DNA from: Campylobacteraceae bacterium
GTDB taxonomy: Bacteria > Campylobacterota > Campylobacteria > Campylobacterales > Sulfurovaceae
NCBI GenBank assembly: GCA_027080995.1
Contig: JALWNT010000021.1
Location: 1 to 64,000 of the forward strand
Length of the DNA stretch: 64,000 bases
Direction: 5' to 3'
Under the pieces are notes generated by a model that made no database searches, was not told the DNA's origin, and saw only the letters and a list, made by a program, of their open reading frames with translations. Shown in pieces: positions 4,191 to 6,334 of this stretch. Both the position numbers and the translations under genes were made by a program. Position 1 is the stretch's first letter. Every line of letters starts with the position of its first letter.

Positions 4191-4331
4191 CGTAGGTTTG
4201 GCCGTGCCAAACGCCTCCGTCAAGGATGATTCGGCGAGGGAGGATCGTTCTTCTCCGCAGAGTATTTTCCAAAAATTTCATTCAAGCGTAAAAATACATT
4301 CCTTGTAACGTTTGGCATGGCCAAACCTACG
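4191..4331 (+). repeat. Small inverted-repeat element (23-bp arms, one mismatch; each arm is itself a hairpin)
   Basis: cgtaggtttggccgtgccaaacg at 4191-4213 versus cgtttggcatggccaaacctacg at 4309-4331. Confidence 0.8.
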
Positions 4332-4352: not shown

Positions 4353-4500
4353 TTTTGAATTTTGAGTTATGAGTTGTGAATGTAGGGGAGAGGGTGAATG
4401 TTGGAAGTTGGATGTTTGATTCGTGGTCCGGGTTCCGGGTTCGGTGTTGCGAAAAGCCGCTGTGCGGCGTTGCGAAAAACGAAAAACGAAAAACGAAATC
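4353..4500 (+). repeat. Composite of four unrelated heptamer arrays plus a hairpin, ending in the dnaX stop codon
   Basis: TTTTGAA TTTTGAG TTATGAG TTGTGAA; GTTGGAA GTTGGAT GTTTGAT; GGTCCGG GTTCCGG GTTCGGT; gccgc-tgt-gcggc; CGAAAAA x3 CGAAATC. Confidence 0.85.
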
Positions 4501-6334
4501 ACACTTTCCGTTTGATCCGCACTTTTTTGGGATCGAAGAGAGCGATGGCCTCTTTGATCATCGGCTCTTCGAGGAGTTTGGAGGGGTCGATCTCCCGGGA
4601 GGCTTCGCTCGTGCCCGTATCGGGGTTCATGCAGCTCGAGGGTAGCTCGATCGCTTCGATGCTGCCGGAGGTTTGGGCGTTTTCGGGAAGGTCGCACTCT
4701 TCGTTTTCGGGTTGTGTGGGGAGACTTTCATCCCTCTCCCGCGCCCTCGGAGGGGGCGTGCGGATCACTTTTTTTTTATCGCTCTCTTCGCTCTTCTCTT
4801 CGGAAGGGGGGAGGTTGACGATGCGGGTCTCGAGGCCGAAAATCTCTTGGACGAAGGTGCGGATCAGCGCCCAGTGGCGGATCAGGAGTTTTTTGTCCTC
4901 CCCTTCGGCGGCGGATTCCCAGCTGAGGGCTCGGCCGTCGAAGGCGTGATAGCGGATGTTGCGCTCGAAGCAGGCTCCCAGGTCATAATCCCGATCGTAG
5001 AGTTTCTCGACGAGCGTGCGGAAGCGCAGGAGACCGGAGTCGTCGGCGAGGGGTTTGTCGCCTTTTTCCCCGGAGGCGGGCTCTTTTGGGGCGGGTCTCT
5101 GCTCCGGCGCGGCGGCGGAACTTTCCGCGGAGGGGAGGGGAGCCTCGGCAGCCCGATCCGTCGCCGAAGTCTCTTCGGCGGAGGCGGGCCTTGCGTGAGC
5201 CGGAGCGGCTTGTTGTCTCGGAGGCTCCTGCGCGACGGGGGGTACGGCTGTCGATGAGGCGGGCGTGACTCCCGCCAGCTCTTTTTGGAGGGTGCGGATC
5301 ATTTCGTCGATCTCTTTGATGGAGAGGGCTTCCATCATTTTGAAAAGGGTCAGCGAGAGGACGAACTCCCCGTCGCTACCGAGAAAGAGCAACTCTTTGG
5401 CTTCGGCGAGGATCCGGAAAAAGCGGTCGAGGATCAGCGGAGGGAATCGGGGATCTTTGGCGAAGAGGAGCTCTTTGAGGTGCATCGTCAATTCGTCGAC
5501 AATCATCTCCGTCTCGTACTCGGCGCTCTCATGGACGAAAGTGAGGATCGCCGCTTCGTTCTTGCGGAGGATCGTATCGAGCAGGGCGTCGAGTCGGGCG
5601 GGTTCGATGATCCCCAGCATCGTCGTGACCGTGGGCAGATCCACAGCTCCTTTGGCATAGACGATGGCTTGATCGAGGAGAGTCAGCGAATCCCGCAGAC
5701 TTCCCGCCCCGCTGCGAGCGAGGATCTCGAGCGCTTCGGGCTCGTAGTCGATCCCTTCGAGGTTGAGGATGTGCTCCAGATGGCTTTTGACCAGGCGGGG
5801 AGAGATCTTTTTGAAACGGAAATGCTGGGTCCGGGAGAGGATCGTCGCCGGGAGTTTGAGCGGATCGGTCGTCGCAAGGATGAATTTGACGAAATCGGGC
5901 GGCTCTTCCAGAGTCTTGAGCAGCGCGTTGAAGGCCTGAGGGGTGAGCATGTGGACTTCGTCGATGATGAAAATTTTGAAGCGGCCGCTGCCGGGTTTGT
6001 ATTTGGTATGCTCGATCAACTCTTTGATGTCGTCGATCCCCCGGTTGGAGGCGGCGTCCATCTCGATGATGTCCATGTGACGATATTCGTTGGCCATGAC
6101 GCAGTGGGGGCACTCTTCGCAGGGGCGGGAGGTGGGGCCCTTTTCGCAGAGCAGGGCTTTGGCGAAGATCCGGGCGGTGGAAGTCTTGCCGCTGCCGCGA
6201 AGCCCCGAAAAGAGGTAGGCGTGGGAGAGCCGGTCGCCGTCGAGAGCCTGGGAGAGGGTCTGAGAGACGGCTTCTTGGCCCACCAGATCGGCGAAAGAAC
6301 GGGGACGGTATTTGCGAGCGAGCGCGAGCGCCAC
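4499..6334 (-). CDS. dnaX: DNA polymerase III subunits gamma/tau
   Basis: ALARKYRPRSFADLVGQE, Walker A GLRGSGKTSTAR, Zn-binding Cys cluster, IIDEVHML, SRTQHFRFK; 611 aa. Confidence 0.95.
   Translation of the reverse strand: MALALARKYRPRSFADLVGQEAVSQTLSQALDGDRLSHAYLFSGLRGSGKTSTARIFAKALLCEKGPTSRPCEECPHCVMANEYRHMDIIEMDAASNRGIDDIKELIEHTKYKPGSGRFKIFIIDEVHMLTPQAFNALLKTLEEPPDFVKFILATTDPLKLPATILSRTQHFRFKKISPRLVKSHLEHILNLEGIDYEPEALEILARSGAGSLRDSLTLLDQAIVYAKGAVDLPTVTTMLGIIEPARLDALLDTILRKNEAAILTFVHESAEYETEMIVDELTMHLKELLFAKDPRFPPLILDRFFRILAEAKELLFLGSDGEFVLSLTLFKMMEALSIKEIDEMIRTLQKELAGVTPASSTAVPPVAQEPPRQQAAPAHARPASAEETSATDRAAEAPLPSAESSAAAPEQRPAPKEPASGEKGDKPLADDSGLLRFRTLVEKLYDRDYDLGACFERNIRYHAFDGRALSWESAAEGEDKKLLIRHWALIRTFVQEIFGLETRIVNLPPSEEKSEESDKKKVIRTPPPRARERDESLPTQPENEECDLPENAQTSGSIEAIELPSSCMNPDTGTSEASREIDPSKLLEEPMIKEAIALFDPKKVRIKRKV

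Follow-up and report, generated by a model that had tools for sequence, protein, structure and literature searches.

The gene dnaX, encoding the tau/gamma subunit of DNA polymerase III (clamp loader ATPase), occupies positions 4499-6334 on the minus strand of the window, by which we mean the whole 64-kb stretch of DNA that was analyzed. This open reading frame of 611 codons starts with GTG and matches the NCBIfam profile PRK08451 (NF006280; DnaX) with an E value of 1.4e-216. Its codons 520-522, placed 85% along the gene, form an uninterrupted run of nine A's (A9; 4769-4777, minus strand) and are read as GAT AAA AAA AAA GTG ATC, as an earlier note on this DNA had described. The interval 4765-4777 given there does contain the run, together with a few flanking bases. 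No other A9 occurs in the window, and by raw count this is unremarkable (1 seen; dinucleotide shuffles predict 1.4). Downstream of dnaX, the intergenic region holds a 23-nt inverted repeat (96%; window positions 4191-4213 and 4309-4331; CGTAGGTTTGGCC...) with a 95-nt spacer.

The earlier note had also placed stops nearby in both other frames, and both are present. Deletion of one A gives AAA AAA AAG TGA, with the TGA (4765-4767, minus strand) directly 3' of the run, and a predicted product of 522 residues ending in ...ESDKKK. Addition of one A, or a -1 shift, gives AAA AAA AAA, SDPHAPSEGAGEG and TGA, with 13 codons before the stop and a predicted product of 535 residues ending in ...KKKSDPHAPSEGAGEG. 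Measured from the run, the stops in the two shifted frames lie 0 and 12 codons on.

Domain layout around the run

The run lies in a hypervariable, disordered linker (4670-4819, minus strand; AlphaFold pLDDT below 55) that joins two conserved parts of the protein. On its 5' side is a folded tau C-terminal (domain V-like) core (4811-5041, minus strand), which AlphaFold models confidently over about residues 432-501 (block means of pLDDT about 93-97). On its 3' side is a conserved C-terminal tail, S556-V611 (4502-4669, minus strand; conservation 0.66 to 0.72), which is modeled with two short helices and would be absent from a slippage product. The mean majority fraction is 0.72 in the ATPase, 0.65 in the folded C-terminal core and 0.66 in the tail (about the last 55 residues), compared to 0.18 in the linker, such that the tail is conserved on a par with the ATPase.

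In E. coli tau, the folded part of domain V ends at residue 617, and the residues beyond it bind the alpha subunit (PMC11470591). Like gamma, the E. coli tau I618X truncation, cut before the last 25 residues, fails to bind alpha, and attempts to isolate it as the sole dnaX allele were unsuccessful (PMC11470591). From its position and conservation, we infer that the C-terminal tail is the counterpart of these alpha-binding residues. A sequence search of the PDB gave no match to tau domain V, and a Foldseek search with the C-terminal region gave no match at E≤0.001. Relatives matched Pfam DUF3646, the tau C-terminal family, below the cut-off only, with one match at the beginning of the core and another at the tail. 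In the model of window positions 4502-5041 (minus strand), the best PDB matches to the core domain are weak and include DnaA domain I and DciA, themselves replication proteins.

Conservation and turnover of the run

The genome that carries the window belongs to the genus Nitratifractor, and dnaX genes from 60 relatives were collected and aligned. The run is present in 10 of the 12 sampled Nitratifractor species, always in the form GAT AAA AAA AAA, in linkers that are otherwise unalignable and in genes that are often GC-rich. The earlier note had named interruption of the run by AAG in close relatives as the observation that would speak against it, and had proposed conservation in relatives as a check. 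No AAG was found at the site in any Nitratifractor dnaX with lysines there; AAG makes up 17-69% of the lysine codons elsewhere in the same genes. In the two species without the run, dnaX is AT-rich and the site lysines are lost altogether. As controls, we followed two further A9 runs that lie in frame in genes of this genome. The run in mnmH is conserved in 0 of 12 relatives and that in an AsmA-like gene in 0 of 9, being interrupted in all of them. The contigs of five Nitratifractor metagenome-assembled genomes (MAGs; G001, G002, G006, G008 and G009) end inside dnaX at codons of about 354-441, in the first linker or close to it, which marks a recurrent assembly break.

Conservation of the run extends to the family that comprises Nitratifractor, Sulfurovum and their relatives. 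We read the region 3' of the core domain in 151 family dnaX copies and found an A9 or A10 in 91 of 143 linkers, compared to 5.4 expected when codon order is shuffled inside each linker with the AAA codons of the run retained, a comparison in which related linkers are not independent. Runs of at least nine A's in family linkers have lengths of 9 and 10 only. In complete genes, they number 21 in 3,990 nt of linker and 3 in the remaining 50,220 nt of dnaX. Outside the family, a run occurs in 5 of 49 cases versus 1.9 expected, which is near chance. Although many of the genomes are MAGs, length errors seem unlikely, as the run is in frame in all 97 family genes that have one.

Most genera carry a run of 9 or 10 in most or all members (g1, 10/12; g2, 11/11; g4, 60/69; g10, 5/5; g6, 3/3; g7, 1/1), and in others it is scarcer (g5, 4/9; g3, 1/7; g11, 1/5; g9, 1/26; g8, 0/1). 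One complete genome of genus g4 is, we presume, that of Sulfurovum sp. NBC37-1. Members of g9 mostly have no run of A8 or longer anywhere in dnaX. That the run is missing from two Nitratifractor species, from most members of g3 and g11 and from almost the whole of g9 implies that its function is dispensable or is met otherwise there. Three AT-rich g9 members (G197, G020 and G029; loci L237, L240 and L242) have an A9 upstream of the core domain, at codons of about 376-379, which is closer to the position of the E. coli gamma site. In dnaX of G169 (L236), the reading frame stops at ISKDLPS* once past the core domain, the tail is encoded in a different frame, and an A-run is lacking; this break could be either an indel error or decay.

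The place of the run in the linker is not fixed. Most runs lie within about 85 nt 3' of the core domain, and all three codon frames occur. In a Sulfurovum clade (G103, G108, G152 and G165), the run is missing from its usual place and an A10 lies further on, in a different frame. The minimum number of changes on a tree built from the core and tail is 18 for presence and 27 for position or frame class; because this tree is poorly resolved, both counts are rough. The repeated change of position and codon frame implies that the run is kept while the residues that it encodes vary.

Stops follow the runs closely. At least one shifted frame closes within one codon in 80% of the 97 family genes, compared to 28% of background positions. 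For whichever of the two stops is more distant, the median distance is 4 codons after runs and 15 at background positions. The background consists of other positions of the same region in the same sequences, and related species are again not independent. The turnover of position and frame, the constant length of 9 or 10 and the close stops in shifted frames together suggest that the run itself is what selection acts on. These comparisons show that exactly 9 or 10 A's have evidently been kept by selection in the DnaX linker of most genera of the family.

Proposed mode of slippage and alternative readings

Two modes of slippage could underlie this selection. The one that competes most seriously with slippage of RNA polymerase is -1 ribosomal frameshifting on A_AAA_AAA, which would make the same short protein, as E. 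coli dnaX does on A_AAA_AAG. The A_AAA_AAA heptamer is available within A9 and A10 runs in each codon frame used, a -1 shift in the window's dnaX leads to the 535-residue product, and the frame opened by a -1 shift, or equally by an extra base, reaches a stop within one codon in 61% of the 97 relatives. However, the frame opened by loss of one A is likewise closed early (within one codon in 52%), and a length of at least 9 exceeds what the heptamer needs and equals the length of known runs for transcriptional slippage. Moreover, the stronger E. coli heptamer is unused; an in-frame A_AAA_AAG is absent from the site, where the run reads AAA AAA AAA G.

Stimulators of frameshifting also failed to appear. 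The earlier note had drawn attention to a GC-rich inverted repeat downstream of the run, and the repeat itself exists (CGCCC-CCTCCGA-GGGCG, beginning 10 nt after the A9), but a hairpin is not supported, as shuffled versions of the stretch downstream of the A9 in the window's dnaX have an equal folding energy (z = -0.09) and this hairpin was not seen in the nearest relative. Nor was a downstream structure conserved across the family (z averaging -0.60; 19% below -2). The hairpin was rejected as a stimulator because it is no better than shuffles here or across the family. An upstream Shine-Dalgarno stimulator is not conserved either, with SD-like motifs in just 7 of 31 testable family members. 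The lack of a conserved structure or Shine-Dalgarno motif, the absence of A_AAA_AAG, a run length at the slippage threshold and the early closing of both frames favor transcriptional slippage. In our judgement, transcriptional slippage of the Thermus kind would clearly be the preferred mode, and ribosomal frameshifting is an unlikely, if serious, contender.

The run might instead be kept for its lysines, which would form a basic patch in the linker. No run encodes fewer than two lysines, and DKKK recurs in Nitratifractor. By contrast, codon choice is hard to reconcile with selection on the peptide: KKK in linkers is coded as AAA AAA AAA in 92 cases and otherwise in 3, and Lys-Lys pairs are AAA-AAA in 46 of 47 linker cases, compared to 56 of 113 elsewhere in dnaX. 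The peptides encoded also vary with the frame (KKK, SKKK, QKKT and EKKI), KKK is not kept in members that lack the run, and stops cluster 3' of it, all of which makes selection for lysines very improbable. Homopolymer runs serve phase variation in Campylobacterota, and replication slippage in dnaX could in principle toggle the gene on and off in a population. This reading is highly improbable, since the runs are short, at 9 or 10 A's without exception, every family gene that has one carries it in frame, and the lost tail is probably essential, as the failure to isolate tau I618X as a sole allele in E. coli suggests (PMC11470591). A run without function, due to chance or base composition, is just as hard to credit; about one A9 per 64 kb is expected from dinucleotide shuffles and about 18 A9-type runs occur in the 1.97 Mb of this genome (G000), but the excess of runs in family linkers and the lack of conservation of the control runs stand against it.

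Predicted short DnaX and relation to known systems

We conclude that the A9 in dnaX is probably a programmed slippage site at which slippage of RNA polymerase would give a short, gamma-like DnaX. The earlier note had called it a likely site of this kind, and that reading is supported by the family conservation, the fixed length of 9 or 10, the turnover of position and frame and the close stops. RNA polymerase would slip on the A run, as in Thermus thermophilus dnaX, part of the dnaX mRNA would then carry fewer or more A's, and translation of these altered mRNAs would yield a DnaX shortened from 611 to about 522 or 535 residues. Such a product would keep the ATPase, the collar and the folded C-terminal core and would be without the putative alpha-binding tail; it may thus act as a gamma-like subunit that loads clamps without tethering the polymerase. 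Because the site is 3' of the folded tau C-terminal domain and 5' of the conserved tail, the short product would lose the tail only, which is what would make it gamma-like. That it would not bind alpha is suggested by loss of the conserved tail, taken with the E. coli tau I618X phenotype. For Campylobacterota, we lean toward the wider view that slippage is family-wide and yields a gamma-like DnaX that keeps the tau C-terminal domain. Repeated loss of the run and its re-creation elsewhere in the linker, in other frames, imply that selection would maintain slippage, not a site.

The analogy to Thermus and E. coli gamma drawn in the earlier note applies in part. In T. thermophilus, the A9 comes seven-eighths of the way through dnaX (PMC1088944) and is followed by stops after 2 and 16 codons (PMC4320859). 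The layout here is shared with it: a late A9, stops close in both other frames and tau as the 0-frame product (PMC1088944, PMC4320859). In contrast, Thermus belongs to a distant phylum, and slippage was shown there, whereas here it is proposed. The likeness to E. coli is that a single gene would supply two clamp-loader subunits, with and, as predicted here, without alpha binding. E. coli differs in that its A_AAA_AAG is accompanied by a stem-loop and by a Shine-Dalgarno stimulator, and its gamma of 431 residues is cut after domain III, whereas the family dnaX genes have no conserved stimulators and are cut after the domain V-like core. The predicted short form is therefore not an E. coli-type gamma lacking domains IV and V. 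Two-ORF dnaX genes with an A10, collected by GeneTack from Chlorobi and others, are alike in that poly-A of 7-10 is used for a second form (PMC3711429); they differ in that their long form needs the slip, whereas the long form is the 0-frame product in this family. The layout of G046 (L058/L348), an order-level MAG, resembles these two-ORF genes (PMC3711429). Its 0-frame DnaX ends in KKK* immediately 3' of an A10, and the -1 frame encodes an intact tail; this is the only dnaX found split in this way among 137 order genomes with a match, and a sequencing or assembly indel is possible.

Slippage in dnaX is known from Thermus and E. coli and is unreported for this sulfur-oxidizing family in the literature searched. 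That search found no report of dnaX slippage or frameshifting in Epsilonproteobacteria or in Sulfurovum, the latter as covered by titles and abstracts. A review notes that dnaX frameshift signatures are missing in most bacteria (PMC3290774), and the run bears on whether a short DnaX is needed outside enterics and Thermus. In this large family of marine and vent bacteria, selection on the run is clear, and sister genera are without it, which offers a natural experiment on the purpose of gamma in a group with cultivable members, such as N. salsuginis and Sulfurovum.
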